Below are positions 27,405-37,145 of a DNA stretch of 46,506 bases, piece by piece; position 1 is the stretch's first letter, and the number at the start of each line of letters is the position of its first letter. Under the pieces are notes generated by a model. It did not search any database. It was given only the letters and a program-made list of their open reading frames with translations, and was not told the DNA's origin. This stretch comes from Leptospirales bacterium (GTDB taxonomy: Bacteria; Spirochaetota; Leptospiria; Leptospirales; Leptospiraceae): the NCBI GenBank assembly GCA_013297885.1, contig JAAFIR010000005.1, positions 1-46,506 of the forward strand, read 5' to 3'. A program made the position numbers and the translations under genes.

Positions 27405-27535
27405 TTTATAAAATACTAATCAATTTAATTAATTTTAAATACTACGAATTTTTTTAATTAAATATTACATAAAAAAAAGTCTTGCTTAATTAAACTCTTT
27501 CTTAATTTTGATGAAACTTGATTTTTGGAGTTTTT

Positions 27536-30469
27536 ATGTATTTGATTAAACTATTTATTTTTATACTTTTCATATTGAACACTGTTCTTTATTCGCAAGA
27601 AAATAAATCCCAAAGAATAATTTATATAGGCAATTTAAAACCATACAACACAAATAAAGATAATAATTTAGAATCACAAGTAAACAAGTCTCTAGAATCA
27701 AAACTTACTAAACAAGGTTTTACTGTAAAATTTTTAAATAATGATTTAAAAACAAATCTAAATGAAGCTAAAAAAGAAAAAGATTCAATTTTAGTAGAGG
27801 GATATTATAGAAGAGATAAAGTTGGAAATATTGTATTGTATACCCAAATATACAATCCAGAAACTGGAACAATGATTGATGCTGGGATTAGTTCAGGAAG
27901 TTATGATGAAGTTGTTGATGCTCCACTTGATATAAATGAATTAAAAACTCCAGATAACGAAATTATTGAAAAAGAAACTACAAAATTAGTTTCTAAAATT
28001 AAATCTAATCCTTCCAAAAAAGAAAATCGTCAAAACATAGATGAAAATGTTATAGAGAGTATTCTAGGAAAAGATAAAAGTTTATTTTTTCCAATTACCT
28101 CAGAAAACGTTGCAAAACAAGCTGAAGATGTTTACAAACTTTTACAATCAAATGAAATTGTCACTGCATCTAGAACAAAAGAATCTGTAATCGATGTTCC
28201 TGCAACTACAATGGTTGTGAGTGAAGCTGATTTTAAAAATCGAGGTTATACAAGTCTTGAAGATATTTTTAAAGACCTACCAGGGTTTGATACAATTGGG
28301 CTAGGTGGATCAGATGCAATTAATTTGTACCAAAGAGGTTACAGAACTCCTTACACATCTAGAACTTTGCTGATGATTGATGGGATTATTCAAAACGATT
28401 TATGGAATCAGGTAGCAACTGTTGACAGAACTTATCCCATTTCAGCAATTAAACGTGTCGAAATTATTTATGGTCCTGCTTCTGCCGTTTATGGTCCAAA
28501 TGCATTTCAAGGTATAATCAATATCATTACTAAAACTGCAAAAGAAAATGGTGGAAAACCTCTTGCTGGAAGAGCAAGTATGATGTATGGAACTGGACCA
28601 AATTGGACAGTCGATGGACAAGCAACATCACAAATAGGGGATCTGGGAATTGCAGTATCAGCAAGAACCACACAAGGTGAAGATGAAAATAATAATGTGA
28701 AAGGTAAAGGATTTAGTTCTCCTTTTTTTATAAGAAATCCAAATATTTGGGGACCTGTTTTGTATTATGGAGATATGGGGAAACCATTTGGAACATACAG
28801 AGACTCAGTAAACAACTGGGGAACAATTACTTCAGTAAATTACAAAACTTTAAAAGTTGGATCAAACATCAGCAACAAAGATGAAAGTTATGGGGGACAT
28901 TATCCTGGTGACAAAGCTCAACCCAACGCCTATTGGAGCAAAAGACTTTTAAATATTTATGCAGAAAACACAGTTGAGATAACTCCAAAACTAACTTCAT
29001 ACACTTTGGCACTTACAAGAGACACGTCCACTTATGGAACTTGGGCAGAAGCAGATGGTTCAAGTTTAACAAGACCATCCTCAGTTAGTATTACTAGATG
29101 GCAAAATAGAAATTCAAGTATTTTAGTTAATCAAAATATTGAATACAAAGTAAATGAAAGTTTAAAAATTTTAGCTGGTTTAAAATACGAAGCAAAAAAA
29201 TTAACAAAGTTTTATGACATTCCTGGTTATTATTGGGGCTCTACATATTTTAGTTCTGTAGATGCATTAAATCCAAATGTAAACAAAGGAGTTGATAAAG
29301 ATCCACTTCATCCAAATGGGGGATATTCTATTTATTTAAGTAATGATCCAATTTTATTAAAAGCACCTTCACCAAGAAATAAAATGCCTGAAGAAAATAC
29401 AATAGGAACATATGATAGAGGTGGGTTTTTATTATCAATCATTGACATAGGTAAATTTCGTTTTAGTCCAGGGATTCGATATGATGAAAATTCAGTTTAC
29501 GGAAGAGCAATGAACCCGAGGATAACTGCAATTTATAAACTTCAGGAACAAACAGCAATTAAACTATTGTATGGTGAAGCATTTAACGAACCTCCACCAC
29601 TTCTTTTGTATGGAGGATTTTCTGGAAGAGTTTCAGATGCAAATTTGAGACCTGAAAAAGTAAAAACTACAGAATTAATTTTAATGAAACAGTCAAAACA
29701 AATTACCAATGAAGGTTCTCTTTATTATTCCAGATATGAAGATGTGATTAAAGAATCAGGACCAAATGTTGGTAGAAGAAGAATTTATGGATTTGAATAT
29801 AAATTTAGATGGAACTTTCAAAATTTTGTAACTAAATCTTCTCCAATTAGTTTTTATACTTATTATACTTATACACTTGCTGAGTCCACGTCTTATTATG
29901 ACCACAATATGAGGCAGTGGAAAGATGGTGTAACTCCACTTGGACAATATGAATTTTTATTTCAAGGAACTAGAACAAATGGTCCTTTTGGTCCTTATGA
30001 TAATGGTCTTGCTTCTTATATTCCAAGACAAGAGAAATACACAAATTTAGGGGACATTGCACCTCACAAAATTAATCTTGGAATCAATCTTCCAATTAAA
30101 GAAGATTTTATTTTAAACTTCAGAGGAAATTATGTAAGTGCAAGAGAATTTTATTCAAGAAATGTTTTGAATAATAATGGACCTTTGCCAAATACTTCAG
30201 ACGAAACATTACTCAGAAGAATTGTTCAGCAAGAAGACAAAAGACTACAGCCTTATTTTGTTTTTGATTCTGGTTTTACATATAATTATGGGGAATATGG
30301 TTTTTTAACATTTAAAATTATGAATGTGTTTAACGAATATTATGTTCATCCTGGTGTTGGAAATGCAAATGCGGGTAATTACTATTATGCGAGGTCAACA
30401 GGTTATGATTCATCTTTACTACCTCAACCTGGAAGAAGTTATATGCTTAGTTTGACTTTGACTTTTTAG
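27536..30469 (+). CDS. TonB-dependent receptor with an N-terminal extension
   Basis: A 977-residue outer-membrane receptor. ATG 27536 follows GGAG; a TTG at 27518 would add six residues. After a signal peptide (about 1-20), residues about 20-120 form an extra domain (RIIYIGNLKPYN, SILVEGYYRRDKVGNIVLYTQIYN) resembling the FlgO/TolB-like fold. A linker leads to the plug (about 205-330: IVTASRTKESVIDVPATTMV, LLMIDGIIQN, VEIIYGPASAVYGPNAFQGI) and a barrel to the end, closing in Phe. The substrate is unknown. It reads into the peroxidase/cupredoxin/cytochrome genes, suggesting a redox or metal role such as copper or haem uptake. Confidence 0.85.
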   Translation: MYLIKLFIFILFILNTVLYSQENKSQRIIYIGNLKPYNTNKDNNLESQVNKSLESKLTKQGFTVKFLNNDLKTNLNEAKKEKDSILVEGYYRRDKVGNIVLYTQIYNPETGTMIDAGISSGSYDEVVDAPLDINELKTPDNEIIEKETTKLVSKIKSNPSKKENRQNIDENVIESILGKDKSLFFPITSENVAKQAEDVYKLLQSNEIVTASRTKESVIDVPATTMVVSEADFKNRGYTSLEDIFKDLPGFDTIGLGGSDAINLYQRGYRTPYTSRTLLMIDGIIQNDLWNQVATVDRTYPISAIKRVEIIYGPASAVYGPNAFQGIINIITKTAKENGGKPLAGRASMMYGTGPNWTVDGQATSQIGDLGIAVSARTTQGEDENNNVKGKGFSSPFFIRNPNIWGPVLYYGDMGKPFGTYRDSVNNWGTITSVNYKTLKVGSNISNKDESYGGHYPGDKAQPNAYWSKRLLNIYAENTVEITPKLTSYTLALTRDTSTYGTWAEADGSSLTRPSSVSITRWQNRNSSILVNQNIEYKVNESLKILAGLKYEAKKLTKFYDIPGYYWGSTYFSSVDALNPNVNKGVDKDPLHPNGGYSIYLSNDPILLKAPSPRNKMPEENTIGTYDRGGFLLSIIDIGKFRFSPGIRYDENSVYGRAMNPRITAIYKLQEQTAIKLLYGEAFNEPPPLLLYGGFSGRVSDANLRPEKVKTTELILMKQSKQITNEGSLYYSRYEDVIKESGPNVGRRRIYGFEYKFRWNFQNFVTKSSPISFYTYYTYTLAESTSYYDHNMRQWKDGVTPLGQYEFLFQGTRTNGPFGPYDNGLASYIPRQEKYTNLGDIAPHKINLGINLPIKEDFILNFRGNYVSAREFYSRNVLNNNGPLPNTSDETLLRRIVQQEDKRLQPYFVFDSGFTYNYGEYGFLTFKIMNVFNEYYVHPGVGNANAGNYYYARSTGYDSSLLPQPGRSYMLSLTLTF

Positions 30470-30547
30470 TTTTTTTATAAGTTTGCATTTTTCATTAAAA
30501 TTATTTTTTTGTAGAGAATGAATAAGACTTCAATCTATGAAAAATCA

Positions 30548-30575
30548 TTGACTGAACAATTTGATAAATTATATT
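30548..30575 (+). promoter_or_regulatory. Putative promoter for the peroxidase gene
   Basis: TTGACT at 30548-30553 is followed after 16 bases by TATATT at 30570-30575. The ATG at 30583 lies 7 bases after the -10 and has no ribosome binding site, so transcription should start at or next to the A of the ATG. This is the best-scoring example of the leaderless pattern in the window. Confidence 0.55.
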
Positions 30576-30582
30576 CAAACTT

Positions 30583-31605
30583 ATGAATAGAAAACTTTTC
30601 ATTTTAATAGCAATTTTATTAGTAACACTTTTTTGTAATAAAACTAAAGAAGTAAGTGAAAATGAAAAACTTGTTTCTGCTCCAAAAAGCAAAACAGAGC
30701 CAATAATCCCAACACCTGAAGACAACAAACTTAATCCTGATAGAATTGAATTAGGAAAAATTCTTTTTTTTGATCCAAGACTATCTGGTTCAAATTGGAT
30801 TAGTTGTGCTACTTGTCATAATCCTGGATTAGGTTTTGGAGATGGTCTTCCAACTGCAATTGGTCATGGAATGAAAGTATTGGGAAAAAATACTCCAACA
30901 ATAATTAACTCTGCTTTTGGAACTAAAATGTTTTGGGATGGTCGTGCAAATTCATTAGAAGAACAAGCACTCGGTCCAATTCAAGCAGCTGGTGAAATGA
31001 ATCAAAAAATGGATGAGTTACTTTTAGAATTAAAAGCTATAAAGAGCTATCTTGTTTTATTTGAAAAAGCATATCCAAAAGAAGGTATAACACCCATCAC
31101 AATTGGAAAAGCTATAGCAAGTTTTGAAAGAACAATCAATTCATTTGATTCTCCTTATGATAGTTATTTGAAAGGAGATAAAACTGCAATGAGCGAATCC
31201 GCAACTAGAGGATTAGTAATATTTAGTAGCAAAGGTAAATGTACAGCTTGTCATATGGGAAATAATTTTACAGATAATGGATTTCATAATCTTGGACTAA
31301 AATCCAATAAAACTGATCTAGGTAGATTTGCAGTAGTTCCAATCAAATCAATGAAAGGTGCATTTAAAACTCCAACTCTTAGAGATGTGGCCTTAACATC
31401 TCCTTATATGCATGATGGAAGTTATAAAACATTAGAAGAAGTTATCGAGCATTATGATCGAGGTGGAGATGAGAAATCTAACCTTGATCCAAACATGAGT
31501 CCATTAGGGCTTACTGCTGAAGAAAAGAAAGATTTAGTTTCATTTATGATTGCTCTAACAGGAAAACCAAAAAATCTAATTATTCCAGAATTACCACAAA
31601 ACTAA
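30583..31605 (+). CDS. Di-haem cytochrome c peroxidase (CcpA/MauG family)
   Basis: A 340-residue putative lipoprotein (lipobox TLFC, Cys18). Two c-type haem sites are present: Cys75-x-x-Cys78-His79 in ISCATCHNPG and Cys220-x-x-Cys223-His224 in GKCTACHMG. Conserved parts of bacterial di-haem peroxidases are GKILFFDPRLSG (59-70), FWDGR (117-121) and SPYMHDGSY (Met276). It would reduce hydrogen peroxide in the periplasm with electrons from cytochrome c or a cupredoxin, and both are encoded next. It heads a run with 10- to -4-base spacing. Confidence 0.9.
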   Translation: MNRKLFILIAILLVTLFCNKTKEVSENEKLVSAPKSKTEPIIPTPEDNKLNPDRIELGKILFFDPRLSGSNWISCATCHNPGLGFGDGLPTAIGHGMKVLGKNTPTIINSAFGTKMFWDGRANSLEEQALGPIQAAGEMNQKMDELLLELKAIKSYLVLFEKAYPKEGITPITIGKAIASFERTINSFDSPYDSYLKGDKTAMSESATRGLVIFSSKGKCTACHMGNNFTDNGFHNLGLKSNKTDLGRFAVVPIKSMKGAFKTPTLRDVALTSPYMHDGSYKTLEEVIEHYDRGGDEKSNLDPNMSPLGLTAEEKKDLVSFMIALTGKPKNLIIPELPQN

Positions 31606-31615
31606 GGAGACTAAA

Positions 31616-31930
31616 ATGAAAAAAATTTTATTAATTCTGTTAACACTTTTAACTGTGGAGAGTGTTTTAGCTGGCGAATATGAAGTTGCTCAAAAAGACA
31701 AGAAATTTTCAAAAGATAAATTAACAATTAAAGTTGGAGATTCTGTAAATTTTCCCAATCAAGACACATTTTTCCATAATGTTTTTTCCCTTTCTCCTTT
31801 AAAGATATTTGACTTAGGTTCTTATCCAAAAGGTCAATCTAGAAAAGTCACTTTTGATAAAGCTGGCAAAATTGTTGTTGAATGTGCCATTCATCCAGAA
31901 ATGAAAATGACAATTGAAGTTACTAAATGA
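31616..31930 (+). CDS. Plastocyanin/azurin-like cupredoxin
   Basis: A 104-residue exported blue copper protein, signal peptide about 1-19. Type 1 copper ligands are His54 (FFHNVF), Cys90, His93 and Met96 in the motif CAIHPEM. The short length and spacing match small plastocyanin/halocyanin-like proteins. As a periplasmic electron carrier it would feed the peroxidase encoded upstream or a cytochrome. AAGGAGACTAAA precedes the ATG and its stop overlaps the cytochrome start (ATGA). Confidence 0.9.
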   Translation: MKKILLILLTLLTVESVLAGEYEVAQKDKKFSKDKLTIKVGDSVNFPNQDTFFHNVFSLSPLKIFDLGSYPKGQSRKVTFDKAGKIVVECAIHPEMKMTIEVTK

Positions 31931-32274
31931 ATATTAAAATTATTTTTTTTATAAATTTCTTACTTTTTAGTTTAAATACAATTGCAAATGAAAAATCAAT
32001 AGTAAGAGGAAGTATTGTATTCAAAACCTATTGTGTTCTTTGCCACGGAGCAAATGGAGATGGTAAAGGAAGGCTTGCTGTTGGTAAAATTCCACCACCT
32101 GCAAATCTTAATAAAACAATGCTCACCGATGAACAAAAAGAAAATATAATTCGTAATGGTGGTGAAAGTGTTGGACGTTCTCCTTTTATGCCTCCATGGG
32201 GTAGCGAGTTATCTAATGAACAAATTAAAGATCTTATTTCTTACATTAATAAAATTTCGAATACGAAGAAATAA
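31927..32274 (+). CDS. Class I cytochrome c
   Basis: A 115-residue exported monohaem cytochrome, signal peptide about 1-20. The haem site is Cys36-x-x-Cys39-His40 (YCVLCHGANGDGKG), with Met88 (SPFMPPWG) as the likely sixth ligand and a closing helix LSNEQIKDLISYINKI. These are the features of small cytochrome c domains that shuttle electrons in the periplasm. Its start overlaps the cupredoxin stop by four bases and the MCP gene follows 9 bases later, so all are coupled. Confidence 0.9.
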   Translation: MNIKIIFFINFLLFSLNTIANEKSIVRGSIVFKTYCVLCHGANGDGKGRLAVGKIPPPANLNKTMLTDEQKENIIRNGGESVGRSPFMPPWGSELSNEQIKDLISYINKISNTKK

Positions 32275-32283
32275 ATTCTCTAA

Positions 32284-33996
32284 ATGAATTTATTAAAGAA
32301 GTATTCTTTAAAAAATAAACTTAGAGCAAGTTATGGAATAATTGTAACATTATTCTTAATTACTTCATCGATGGTTTTAGTTAGTTTGTTATCATCTAAA
32401 TTTGCTTTTAGAAAAACAATACATGAGTCCTATCCCAAATTTGAGGCTTTAAATAATTTACAAAACAGTGTTTCTCAAATTGAACTTTCTTTATCTTCAT
32501 TGATATCAACTAATGATGCTTACTTAATTGAAGAAATCAGTACAAATTTAAAAAAGGAATTTGCAGATATAGATAAAAATCTAATTTCATTTCAAATCTT
32601 TGATTTAAGTAATTCCGAAAAAGAAATGATCAAAGAATTGAAGGAAGATATTGATTCGCTTTTATCATATGAAGAATCTTTTAAAACATTAAAACTAGAA
32701 AATCGAGTTGATGAAATTAATATTCTTTATGTGAGAGGTGTTGTTGGAAAAGGAGAAAAAATAAAAAAAGTAATAAAAGAATTAGTCAGAATTGAAAAAA
32801 ATACTTCTATTACAAATGGAATATTAGCTGAAAATCGAATTAATATTTCAGTCATTTTCATTTCTGGTTCATCAATTTTTATAATTATTTTAGCAATCTT
32901 TTTTTTGTTTATAATTTATAAATCAATAATGATTCCATTAAGAGAAGCTTTGGGAATTGCCTCTAAAATTTCAAAAGGAGAATTAAATAATATCTATTCT
33001 TATAAATCTAGTGATGAAATGGGGGAATTGTTAAATTATATAAATAAAATGGAATTTGCTTTGAAAGAAATTATTTCAGAGATTCATTTTAATGTCTTAG
33101 GTTCAACTGGAGCTTGTAAAGAATTTACTTCTATGTCCAATGAATTTGAAAGAGCATCCAATAAACAATTAAATAGCTATCATGAAATTGTAAAACAAAC
33201 TGAACAATTAACAACAGCTGTTGAGAGAAAGTCATTAATTGCTCTAAACTCAGCTACAAATTTAAAAGACTTAGAAATGAATATCCAAAATAACTTTGAA
33301 GGAATTTTAAAAATTAATGATAGTGTTTATCAATTTTCAACAGAAGCAAATAATTCTTCAGACACAGCAAAAATAGGAAAACAAAAAGTGGAAAACACAG
33401 TAGAAATGTTCAACATTGTAAAGAAAAGCTCTGATGAAATTAAAAAAGTTCTAGAAATGATTGAAGAAATATCAGATCGAACAAATCTACTTGCAATAAA
33501 TGCTTCTATTGAAGCTGCCCGTGCAGGAGAACATGGAAGAGGGTTTTCAGTAGTTGCAAGTGAAATTTCAAAACTTGCAGAACACACAATAGTTAGTACT
33601 AAAGAAATTAAAAATTTAATAAATATAAGTAATTTGAATATTAAAAATAGTTCAATAGAGATGCAAGAATTCAAAGTCACTTTTGATGAGATACAAGAAA
33701 AAGTTGAAAAAATTTTTGCATCTAGTAAAAAAATTCTTTTTGAGATTGAAGATCAAAAAAATAATTTGCTAAATTCTACTGAAAGAGTAAAAGAAATTTC
33801 TGGTGGAATGGAAGCTTTAAAAGAAGAATTTAATAAAACAAAATCCACTTATCTTAAAATAAATACAAATGTTCAAGACCTTGCAGTTAGTTCAGAATTA
33901 ATAGTTTCAGGATCTGTAAAAATTTCAGAAGTCGCTGGTAATCTTAGTCATCAAACTGATAAAATTAAATCTTTAATGGATAAATTTAGTTATTAA
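32284..33996 (+). CDS. Methyl-accepting chemotaxis protein
   Basis: A 570-residue chemoreceptor. Membrane segments lie at about 16-38 and 185-213, enclosing a helical periplasmic sensor of about 145 residues (four-helix-bundle type). A HAMP domain (about 214-266) is followed by the cytoplasmic signalling domain, with the conserved tip [20 protein letters not shown] beginning near 393 and [22 protein letters not shown] next to it. The sensor has no CxxCH, so it does not itself carry haem. It is transcribed with the cytochrome c, cupredoxin and peroxidase, suggesting it senses the redox state or substrate of that chain. Confidence 0.9.
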
Positions 33997-34044: not shown

Positions 34045-34476
34045 TTAATAAACTAGTTGTTCCTCAATTAAAGAATCAAATTTATTTATCAAATCTTCAT
34101 AGTCTTTAAATGAAACTTTCCCAAAAGAGATAATTTCTCCTGATTCTAGATCGACAATCCTAACTTGAAAAACATTGGAAGTGAAACTAGAATTGATAAT
34201 ATAATTTGTTGAAGGAACTACTTTGCGAGAGAGAATCAAATCGGATTTAATTTTTTTATCAAGAATTATAACTTCTTTTCCTGAATGTCTAGTAAAAGAA
34301 CTAGCAAATTTTTCAGTGAATCGAATTTGCTCTTCTCTGGAAATATCTTTAATTTCAAAAATAGGAATTTGAAATCTAATTTTTTTATTTTCAGGAAACT
34401 TATTTATATTTTCTTTATCAGAAGTTTTGCATAAATTGAACAATAAAATAAAACTTAAAAATAAAAATTTTGTCAT
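34045..34476 (-). CDS. Small lipoprotein, possibly FlgO/TolB-like
   Basis: A 143-residue protein with a lipobox LFNLC (Cys16). A strand-helix pattern (IRFQIPIFEIKD, FTEKFASSFTRH, EVIILDKK, FQVRIVDLESGEIISFGKVSF) resembles the CsgG/FlgO-like fold of its neighbours in the same operon, though no motif settles this. It starts inside the stop of the thioredoxin-like gene (ATGA overlap). Function unknown; by context a periplasmic, membrane-anchored partner of the CsgG-like proteins. Confidence 0.7.
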   Translation of the reverse strand: MTKFLFLSFILLFNLCKTSDKENINKFPENKKIRFQIPIFEIKDISREEQIRFTEKFASSFTRHSGKEVIILDKKIKSDLILSRKVVPSTNYIINSSFTSNVFQVRIVDLESGEIISFGKVSFKDYEDLINKFDSLIEEQLVY

Positions 34477-34955
34477 AAACTTTCTAATCCTTTTTGTATT
34501 TTCCCGATTGTATTTTTTTCATAACCAATTGATTCAAAAACAATATTTCCAGTTTCATTTATTAGGATAGTTGCAGGAATTGCAAGTTTTGGTTTTAAAT
34601 ATTGTTTTAAAGCAACTTGATATGGATCGAGTAAAACCATAGAATCAATTTTCCAATCGACAATAAGTTGTTCTACTTTTTCTTGTTCTGATTTTTCGTC
34701 CACATTAATCAAGATTAATTTTATATTCGGATATTTTAAAACTAATTTTTGGATTTCAGAAATTTCTTCTTTGCAAGGAACACAATAAGATGCAAAAAAA
34801 TTTACAATCACTTTATTTCCAGAAATGTATTCTCTAAAAAGTTTAAACTCATTTGTTTTTAAATTTGGAAGAATAAATGCAGAAGGAGCAGGTTTTCCAA
34901 CCTCACCAAATAAGAAGAAAGAAAAAAAAGTATAATAAAAAAAAAGTTTCTTCAT
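34473..34955 (-). CDS. TlpA/ResA-like thiol-disulfide oxidoreductase
   Basis: A 160-residue thioredoxin-fold protein with a signal peptide (about 1-17), so periplasmic. The active site is CVPC (Cys58, Cys61) in NFFASYCVPCKEE, followed by a TlpA-type middle and a cis-Pro segment (KLAIPATILI). It would reduce or oxidise cysteines of exported proteins. It starts three bases after the stop of the second CsgG-like gene and overlaps the next lipoprotein, so it belongs to the operon; the CsgG-like proteins carry a conserved Cys pair that could be its substrate. Confidence 0.85.
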   Translation of the reverse strand: MKKLFFYYTFFSFFLFGEVGKPAPSAFILPNLKTNEFKLFREYISGNKVIVNFFASYCVPCKEEISEIQKLVLKYPNIKLILINVDEKSEQEKVEQLIVDWKIDSMVLLDPYQVALKQYLKPKLAIPATILINETGNIVFESIGYEKNTIGKIQKGLESL

Positions 34956-34958
34956 TTT

Positions 34959-35939
34959 TTAAAATCGAAATGTATAATACAGTTCAAAATTTGTTCCGAG
35001 TTTAGATTGACTGCTATATGTATTATTATCAGAAGTTCTATGTTCAGGTTTGATATTAAATGAAAAATTTTGTTCATTCTTTTTTTTTCGATATACTATA
35101 TCAAATAAATTAAAGAACATTACCCCTAGTATCGTTAAGCTAGCTTCAGTTTGTTTTCTTCTGATAATTGAATTTTGTTGATCTTTGAAATTATTCTCTA
35201 TATCTAAATAAATAAAAATCATACTATTTGTGTCATTTACGATTGAATTTGAGGTATTCACAGCATACTGGTAAGCCCCAATTCGTATTATAGCCTCAGT
35301 ATCTCGAAGAGTAAAATTATCTCTTTTAGTTTGTGGTATCCTAACAAAAATATTATAAAAAGTATAAATATAAGGAGTGAGAAGAATTATACCTGTAGAG
35401 TATTCTTTTAAGTAAATTTGACCAGCACCTGGCAAAAAAACAGAATATCTAGCCGACTTTTCAATTTCTTCTTCAGTATAAATTCTGTTTTTTTTTATTT
35501 CTTCAGTTGGAACAAATTTTTGCACTAGGGAGCTTATAGATAGTTCTAGTTTATCCAAATCATTTATATTCATAGTTTCAGTAAATTCTATACTTTGATT
35601 TTCCACATTCCGAATCTGAATAGTAAGAATATATTTTGTGTCAGACTTAATTATATTTCCAGATACAACTTTATTTGCAGATAACATCTGTCCGATTTGA
35701 ATTTCACAAATTGTTTCAGTGCAACCTTTTTTTTGTAGTTCTTGCTCTTTTAAAACTTCATTGAGCTGATCTTTTTCAATGATGCTATATTTTCCTGATT
35801 TAGATAATTCTGAAATAAAATAATTTTGAGCTGTGCTTGAAATTTCTTTGTGAACATTTTCTGCTCGAACAAAATCCAAAACAAGAATTCTTTCTTTTGA
35901 AAATAAACTTAAACTAAATAAAAAAATTATATAACGCAT
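34959..35939 (-). CDS. CsgG/TolB-like protein with membrane C-terminus (paralogue 2)
   Basis: A 326-residue protein from ATG 35939, chosen because GGAGG lies 6 bases upstream (a TTG four codons earlier lacks such a site). A signal peptide is followed by a CsgG/TolB-like domain (about 17-145: ERILVLDFVRAENV, YSIIEKDQLNEVLKEQEL, KKGCTETICE, NKVVSGNIIKS). A DUF5683-like membrane region (about 165-215, FLPGAGQIYLKEYSTG) and a C-terminal part ending in Tyr-Thr-Phe-Arg-Phe follow. It shares all these features with the gene upstream and begins within that gene's stop codon. Confidence 0.8.
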   Translation of the reverse strand: MRYIIFLFSLSLFSKERILVLDFVRAENVHKEISSTAQNYFISELSKSGKYSIIEKDQLNEVLKEQELQKKGCTETICEIQIGQMLSANKVVSGNIIKSDTKYILTIQIRNVENQSIEFTETMNINDLDKLELSISSLVQKFVPTEEIKKNRIYTEEEIEKSARYSVFLPGAGQIYLKEYSTGIILLTPYIYTFYNIFVRIPQTKRDNFTLRDTEAIIRIGAYQYAVNTSNSIVNDTNSMIFIYLDIENNFKDQQNSIIRRKQTEASLTILGVMFFNLFDIVYRKKKNEQNFSFNIKPEHRTSDNNTYSSQSKLGTNFELYYTFRF

Positions 35940-36958
35940 TAAAACCTCCAAGTAAATTCTAGTTCGTACCTAGAACTAAAATTTATATCTTTGTAAATAG
36001 AATTTTGAAAATTTGATTTTTCTGGATAATAATTAAATCTAAGACTTTTAAAAAAGTAATTATCCAAAGTTGTAAAATTTAATTCAGTTTGAACAAAAAT
36101 CCAATTTGCAAGAAAAAAAAAGTAACTATTTAAAGTTCTTATTTTCATTTCTTTTTCAATTTTATTTTCATCATCTAAAGCTTTTGCGTAAATTCCAATA
36201 GCGATTTCTTTTGAAACTGGTGGAAAAAATACTGATTGGTTGTTCGATAAATACAAACCAAAAATGCTAAAGTCTAACTCATCTTTAATTCCTCTTTTGG
36301 AATCTCTATTAGAGTTTGGAACTACATATACCAAATTATATAGTGTCAAATTATTTAAACATAAAAAAATAATTCCTTTCGTTACTTGATTTTCTTTAAG
36401 ATGACCAACACCTGGATAAACCATCGACCCGATAAGTGATTCTTTCTGGGTTTTAGTGAGTTCTGGTTTTGAAATTATAATTTTATTAGATAAAAATCTT
36501 CTTAATGAATCTCCGATGGAATCTTCCAATTGATTTAATTCAGAAATATTTTTAGTTTCAGAAAATTCTACTTTTCCATCATCAACTTTTCTGATGCTTA
36601 GTGAAACAATATAATTTGATTCTAAATGAATAATGCTTCCAGTCAAAATTAAATTTGCTGAAAGTAGTTTTCCCGTTTTTACAGCACACTCAGTATCAGT
36701 GCAACCTTGTTCCACTAAAGCTTGCTCTTTTAAAATCAAATCAACTGTTTCTCTTTCAATTACAGCATACTTTTTTGATTTTAGAAGTTCAGAAATTACT
36801 TTATTAGAAGCAATATCACCCGTTCCAACAGGAACTCCATTTGATTCTGTAAAATTCATTACAGCTATTCTTTCTTTTGCAAACAAGTTAAATTGCACAA
36901 ACAGAAAAATAAGCAAAGGCAAAAATAGTTTTTCTTTTAATTTAAAAAATGGTATCAT
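35939..36958 (-). CDS. CsgG/TolB-like protein with membrane C-terminus (paralogue 1)
   Basis: A 339-residue protein. Signal or membrane segment about 8-27, then a CsgG/TolB-like domain (ERIAVMNFTESN, YAVIERETVDLILKEQAL, EQGCTDTECA, LILTGSIIH) and a membrane segment about 165-215 (GSMVYPGVGHLKENQVTKG). The last residues are FTWRF. ATG 36958 is preferred to the TTG before it. It has the same Cys-x4-Cys as its paralogue. It is the first gene of the operon with the TlpA-like protein. CsgG-type domains often act in outer-membrane secretion or stress sensing; the role here is unknown. Confidence 0.8.
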   Translation of the reverse strand: MIPFFKLKEKLFLPLLIFLFVQFNLFAKERIAVMNFTESNGVPVGTGDIASNKVISELLKSKKYAVIERETVDLILKEQALVEQGCTDTECAVKTGKLLSANLILTGSIIHLESNYIVSLSIRKVDDGKVEFSETKNISELNQLEDSIGDSLRRFLSNKIIISKPELTKTQKESLIGSMVYPGVGHLKENQVTKGIIFLCLNNLTLYNLVYVVPNSNRDSKRGIKDELDFSIFGLYLSNNQSVFFPPVSKEIAIGIYAKALDDENKIEKEMKIRTLNSYFFFLANWIFVQTELNFTTLDNYFFKSLRFNYYPEKSNFQNSIYKDINFSSRYELEFTWRF

Positions 36959-37145
36959 CAATTGTTCTCTTTATATTTATTATAAAATAGTTTAATTAAA
37001 AACTAAATTTACAAATCTATAATTAAGAATTATTATAGATGTCTCCAATATAAAATAATCAGAATTTAATTACAAGATTTTTTTATTCACATTTTTAAGA
37101 GTCTTTTTAAGGATTTTATTTTGATCCAAAAATTAGAAAGAAAAC

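Follow-up and report, generated by a model that had tools for sequence, protein, structure and literature searches.

A stretch of 46,506 nucleotides of a contig from a Leptospirales bacterium (hereafter the window; its genome is labelled G000, other genomes Gnnn and their loci Lnnn) carries consecutive genes for a di-haem enzyme of the cytochrome c peroxidase (CCP)/MauG family, a cupredoxin, a cytochrome c, and a methyl-accepting chemotaxis protein (MCP). We read these four genes, with a probability of roughly 0.55, as a redox-sensing chemotaxis module, in which a periplasmic relay that reacts with peroxide would have its redox state read by a dedicated receptor carrying a four-helix-bundle (4HB) sensor. 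Such behaviour would fall under redox or energy taxis, of which the module would be a variant. The linkage points to an unnamed redox-sensing module, which is currently mislabelled as methylamine utilisation.

The unit comprises the CCP, cupredoxin, cytochrome c, and MCP genes (30583-33996) and excludes the TonB-dependent receptor gene that precedes them. The five genes named in a preliminary description of this DNA were confirmed by open reading frames and Pfam matches (Table 1). All five lie on the + strand, and the intergenic gaps from the TonB receptor through the MCP are 113, 10, -4, and 9 bases, the start of the cytochrome c gene overlapping the stop of the cupredoxin gene by 4 nt; the statement that the last four genes are at most 10 bases apart is thus exact. 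A consensus-like candidate promoter (TTGACT-16-TATATT, 30548-30575), placed 7 nt before the enzyme ATG, is given no weight; the scan gave 33 sites compared to 45 in shuffled DNA.

Table 1. Features of the peroxidase-chemoreceptor locus and its upstream neighbour, in window coordinates
Feature	Position	Strand	Basis or remark
TonB-dependent receptor	27536-30469	+	Open reading frame; TTG start at 27518 also possible
Di-haem CCP/MauG-family enzyme	30583-31605	+	Open reading frame; PF03150 CCP_MauG 2e-57
Haem 1 motif CATCH (C75-H79)	30805-30819	+	Read from enzyme sequence
Haem 2 motif CTACH (C220-H224)	31240-31254	+	Read from enzyme sequence
Tyr291 codon, MauG-type ligand position	31453-31455	+	Alignment; criterion of PMC7567364 and PMC10294975
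Cupredoxin with signal peptide	31616-31930	+	Pfam Copper-bind 2e-07
Mono-haem class I cytochrome c, CVLCH (C36-H40)	31927-32274	+	Pfam Cytochrome_CBB3 3e-12
MCP: 4HB sensor, HAMP region, signalling domain	32284-33996	+	
4HB sensor region, aa 9-175, including first membrane helix	32308-32808	+	PF12729 4HB_MCP_1 2.1e-06
MCP signalling domain, aa 354-519	33343-33840	+	PF00015 MCPsignal 9.2e-35

The enzyme carries a MauG-type tyrosine in a CCP-like protein. Both haem motifs, together with W118, Q128, and E138, are invariant in the orthologue alignment; from their spacing, we take W118 to be the interhaem Trp and Q128 and E138 to be the catalytic Gln and Glu, with which the two CxxCH motifs, interhaem Trp, and catalytic Gln/Glu of a canonical CCP are all present, and the top PDB sequence matches are likewise canonical CCPs. 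The Met (or His) that serves canonical CCPs as the distal ligand of the high-potential haem is replaced by Tyr291, which lies 14 residues beyond the PYxH His and occupies the alignment column of the Met of MacA. The enzyme therefore has the Tyr ligand at the six-coordinate haem that characterises MauG, as judged by alignment only. Tyr is found at the distal-ligand position of the second haem in 68 of 71 readable relatives, and two other CCPs of the window genome have Met in the same column. This Tyr criterion for MauG-like proteins has been published for Leptospira, with Y291 in LIMLP_14325 (PMC10294975). The best NCBIfam match is TIGR03791 (MauG), but the score of 311.8 bits fails the cut-off of 443.85 by 132 bits, and the enzyme is also below the cut-off for MbnH (TIGR04039, 221.3 versus 362.85 bits); no MbnP was found in the window cluster with Pfam.

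The term di-haem peroxidase in the preliminary description thus holds for the two haem motifs, while its peroxidase part has to be qualified, as the second haem position has a MauG-type Tyr and not a CCP-type Met. Peroxide reduction by the window enzyme is plausible because BthA, which is also Tyr-ligated, converts H2O2 to water, showing that Tyr ligation is compatible with peroxidase activity (PMC6405878). The enzyme is also predicted to be a periplasmic lipoprotein, and Cys18 is invariant among its six closest orthologues. A structure prediction from six sequences reached a confidence (pLDDT) of 52 and was not used. Elsewhere in the window genome, a Met-type CCP gene overlaps by 4 nt the gene of a 535-aa DAHL-sensor protein, forming a second peroxidase-sensor pair (L170:7195-9902, contig C33), and an MbnH-family enzyme that exceeds its cut-off (436 bits) stands beside MbnP (L172:6635-9102, contig C34).

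The cupredoxin has the type 1 copper ligands His54, Cys90, His93, and Met96, with a C-x2-H-x2-M loop as in amicyanin; this ligand set is invariant in five orthologues and aligns with that of amicyanin. Its best PDB matches are amicyanins (3.5e-07), but it scores 28.0 bits against the amicyanin cut-off of 110.2 (TIGR02657), 82 bits below. A modification of Trp in the cupredoxin by a MauG- or MbnH-like reaction is ruled out, the window cupredoxin having no Trp. In one group of marine relatives, a P460-type protein with CxxCH takes the place of the cytochrome. Six clusters, mostly marine (L079, L088, L098, L100, L108, and L110), consist of a CCP, a cupredoxin-like protein of ~210 aa, a P460-like protein 3' of it, and an MCP; the one ~210-aa protein tested had no Pfam match.

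The receptor has both the signalling domain (PF00015, 9e-35) and the periplasmic sensor (PF12729, 2e-06) of an MCP, and its orthologues match 4HB_MCP_1 more strongly (2.6e-16 in L038 and 1.9e-11 in L040). The preliminary description had stated that the chemoreceptor is without a haem motif; indeed, CxxCH is absent from the window MCP and from all 45 linked MCPs, which are thus not c-type haem chemoreceptors. Pfam and motif searches of the window MCP detected no PAS, haem, or other cofactor domain, and a PDB search with its sensor region gave no match.

Conservation of the gene order was examined in 29 further genomes of the same order. The quartet is present in the same order and tightly packed in three of them (G024, G026, and G029), of which one shares the genus of the window genome and the remaining two belong to different genera within the family, and the MCP adjoins the enzyme in four of the five family genomes that have a close orthologue of the enzyme. 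When the window MCP is compared with all of G029, G026, and G024, its best match in each is the quartet MCP, out of 14-27 MCP hits per genome; across 12 genomes, these three lead the MCP hits, matching the window MCP over its full length at 28-30% identity, and the receptor therefore looks like a dedicated, fast-changing partner. In G025, neither a cupredoxin nor a cytochrome accompanies the enzyme, and two sensor kinases are encoded nearby, one of them with a Tll0287-like domain; G009, from another family, has a cupredoxin, a CheA-like membrane kinase, the enzyme, and a cytochrome. Immediately before the quartet of G029, and pointing away from it, are genes for a Fur-family regulator and a second CCP (L039:3444-4940), which makes peroxide or metal control of this quartet possible.

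The TonB receptor is a neighbour rather than a member. It does not adjoin the quartet in G024, G026, or G029, and its orthologues in G027, G028, and G029 (62-72%), genomes of the genus of the window genome, sit in other neighbourhoods; it was rejected as a member on these grounds. The preliminary description had counted the receptor as part of the unit and had thereby joined metal or haem uptake to it, a link that falls together with the receptor, whereas its view that the chemoreceptor belongs to one unit with the enzyme, the copper protein, and the cytochrome is upheld by the conserved quartet. The Plug domain of the TonB receptor was placed by Pfam at residues 218-327, leaving an N-terminal extension of ~200 aa (27536-28180) for which Pfam has no matching family; the extension is seen again in several TonB receptors among genomes of the same family. 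Further upstream in the window is a Leptospira-type lipoprotein of family TIGR04454, and downstream, on the - strand (34473-36961), a TlpA/ResA-like thioredoxin is encoded with two tandem CsgG/LpoB-like proteins at short gaps, Pfam having been applied to the first of the two CsgG-like proteins.

A genome-wide scan with six orthologous enzymes was used to follow the linkage beyond the family; the 80 best relatives among the matches listed, which are a sample, come from alpha-, beta-, and gammaproteobacteria, Rokubacteria, Bdellovibrionota, Planctomycetota, Acidobacteriota, and others. An MCP is encoded no more than 5 kb from the enzyme in 44 of the 80, a cupredoxin in 54, and a cytochrome of the window type in 30. 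With the window included, the MCP-positive loci span at least six phyla (Pseudomonadota, Rokubacteria, Bdellovibrionota, Planctomycetota, Acidobacteriota, and Spirochaetota). In at least two more loci (L085 and L097), a reading frame that is short or truncated encodes a matching receptor sensor, and the figure of 44 is therefore probably an undercount. The MCP and enzyme genes share a one-strand run with gaps below 150 nt in 30 of these 44 loci, some with 4-nt overlaps; the gene order differs among them, the MCP standing first or last. The preliminary description had held that its unit would be contradicted if the chemoreceptor were absent or elsewhere in most relatives that have the peroxidase genes; the chemoreceptor is instead retained beside the enzyme in most family genomes and near it in more than half of the relatives elsewhere.

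The MCP background in 38 host genomes is 594 genes per 167 Mb, or 0.036 per 10 kb, against which 44 of 80 has a binomial p of ~3e-42, a value that ignores relatedness. Among other CCP/MauG paralogues of the same genomes, an MCP is nearby in 2 of 38 and a cupredoxin in 0 of 38; two further regions, being the module's own enzymes, were excluded from this control, and some control contigs have short flanks. On a quick maximum-likelihood tree of the enzyme, 17 changes of the MCP label are required, of which well-supported branches force nine or more, and the MCP linkage has therefore been gained or lost many times.

The output beside the enzyme is exchanged in some relatives. The cupredoxin gene of Rhizobium leguminosarum is followed by one for a sensor joined to GAF-GGDEF-EAL, and this sensor is homologous to those of the alphaproteobacterial MCPs linked to the enzyme, with 116 bits in an alignment of 240 positions that takes in HAMP. 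One Rokubacterium has an MHYT histidine kinase as the neighbour in place of the MCP. That the output changes while the enzyme stays the same speaks for the pair of enzyme and sensor as the functional core. A weak match of the G009 kinase sensor to betaproteobacterial MCP sensors (22.6 bits) was not relied on. In L112 (9604-11877), a cytochrome b561-MCP fusion lies beside the CCP and cupredoxin genes and is possibly an unrecognised electron-sensing chemoreceptor.

The module could operate as follows. The MauG-type (His/Tyr) di-haem enzyme, probably anchored in the periplasm as a lipoprotein, would react with peroxide, presumably H2O2, or a related oxidant, and would trade electrons with two carriers, the amicyanin-like cupredoxin and the cytochrome c, giving an electron flow among three proteins. 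The 4HB periplasmic domain of the receptor would read the redox state or flux of this relay, most likely by touching one of the relay proteins, and would pass the signal on to the chemotaxis pathway, by which the direction of the swimming response would presumably be set. The linkage of the genes is shown, whereas oxidant, electron route, protein contact, and swimming behaviour in this scheme are inferred.

Several observations weigh against this mechanism. Foremost, the linked sensor domains are not one family (26 of the 45 linked MCPs match 4HB_MCP_1); nothing else speaks as strongly against a single fixed docking surface, and this variety makes a small-molecule signal conceivable. The cytochrome varies among relatives, being class I, di-haem, or P460, and some clusters consist of CCP and MCP alone, so that the cupredoxin is not always needed. 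Around 45% of the relatives have no MCP within 5 kb, although some of these loci are cut by contig ends. The CCP induced in H2O2 studies is a different one, of the Met type (PMC7567364), and in an ovine chamber the corresponding operon of L. interrogans, which is described below, is down and not up (PMC13066512).

As a first alternative, the enzyme might make or remove a periplasmic small molecule (an oxidised amine, a quinone, or an NO-related or metal species) that the receptor binds, so that the link would be metabolic, a substrate taxis, and involve no protein contact. 4HB domains commonly bind small molecules, the linked sensors belong to several families, the marine clusters add a cytochrome P460 with CxxCH from a family known for nitrogen-oxide chemistry, and the enzyme resembles MauG, whose family has oxidation substrates different from the electron donors on which CCPs usually draw. 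On the other hand, the module has neither a conserved substrate-binding protein nor a conserved dehydrogenase, 29 of the 32 genomes searched lack methylamine dehydrogenase, and several of the non-4HB sensors are themselves of redox or metal type (cytochrome b561, the MHYT kinase, and the Tll0287-domain kinase). We regard substrate taxis as rather unlikely, but as deserving serious attention.

Improbable to a greater degree is a relay that reduces peroxide or serves as a terminal electron acceptor and is merely co-expressed with an energy-taxis receptor sensing the membrane energy state itself. The b561-MCP fusion of one relative could tap the quinone pool, but the window MCP lacks any cofactor domain of the kinds searched for, and the tight pairing fails to hold for other CCP types.

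A methylamine-utilisation (mau-like) operon has been proposed for L. interrogans, where MY479_RS03480-RS03495 encode mauG1, petE, a cytochrome c, and an MCP (PMC13066512). RNA-seq in the ovine chamber showed these four genes to be co-repressed, with log2 fold changes of -3.14, -1.87, -1.84, and -1.73 (PMC13066512), and the joint repression fits one transcript. The MauG-type Tyr, the amicyanin-like copper loop, and TIGR03791 as best NCBIfam match agree with this name. However, the large subunit of methylamine dehydrogenase (PF06433) is absent from G000 and from 28 of the 31 other genomes searched, the window cluster has no other mau gene, and enzyme and cupredoxin both fall far below their family cut-offs. 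Methylamine utilisation is rejected for the window genome on the missing dehydrogenase, and as a general explanation it is very improbable. Chance or hitch-hiking proximity of unrelated genes, which the many MCP genes of these genomes (24 hits in G000) might suggest, is negligible in view of the background expectation, the forced label changes on the tree, and the paralogue control.

The redox-sensing module might go further and represent a distinct sensing class, in which oxidants would be sensed by a separate periplasmic device, made up of a MauG-type di-haem enzyme with a blue copper protein, that reports by protein contact to interchangeable outputs (chemoreceptor, cyclic di-GMP enzyme, or histidine kinase). 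The class would extend over six or more phyla and probably take in pathogenic Leptospira; this wider claim is put forward only tentatively. The redox-sensing reading offers a function for a widespread MauG-like clade annotated as cytochrome c peroxidase or methylamine utilisation, and the latter annotation appears mistaken for the clade, nearly all genomes searched being without methylamine dehydrogenase. It also suggests a possible route by which bacteria could navigate by extracellular oxidants through a receptor without a known cofactor. The module is compact and present in culturable organisms, among them Rhodoferax lacus and Pseudoalteromonas luteoviolacea (L066 and L115), and its likely presence in L. 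interrogans bears on redox sensing in that species.

In the open-access literature, no prior description of a peroxidase-cupredoxin-chemoreceptor sensory system was found, only the L. interrogans operon, and such an absence is not proof of novelty. That operon has the same four annotations on consecutive locus tags, a likeness at the level of annotation, but it is named for methylamine utilisation, and its MCP is listed in a separate place, with chemotaxis. MauG of the mau cluster shares the di-haem fold, the Tyr at the six-coordinate haem, and an amicyanin-like cupredoxin alongside, whereas the window enzyme is far below the MauG cut-off, lacks methylamine dehydrogenase, and has an added chemoreceptor. 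BthA of Burkholderia is likewise a Tyr-ligated di-haem enzyme outside mau operons, but it has Ser257 where the window enzyme has W118, and the paper on it mentions no chemotaxis link (PMC6405878). The MbnH/MbnP system includes an enzyme of the same di-haem superfamily; the window enzyme, however, scores below the MbnH cut-off and no MbnP adjoins it. GSU0582 and GSU0935 of Geobacter, which we take to be c-type haem chemoreceptors, that is, MCPs with redox-related periplasmic sensing and the haem in the receptor itself, differ from the window receptor, which has no haem and whose redox proteins are encoded by separate genes. In binding-protein-dependent chemotaxis, the 4HB receptor Tar reads a periplasmic protein, the maltose-binding protein. 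This pair could serve as a model of how the module works, with the difference that the partner here would be a redox protein and that its contact with the receptor is one that we infer.

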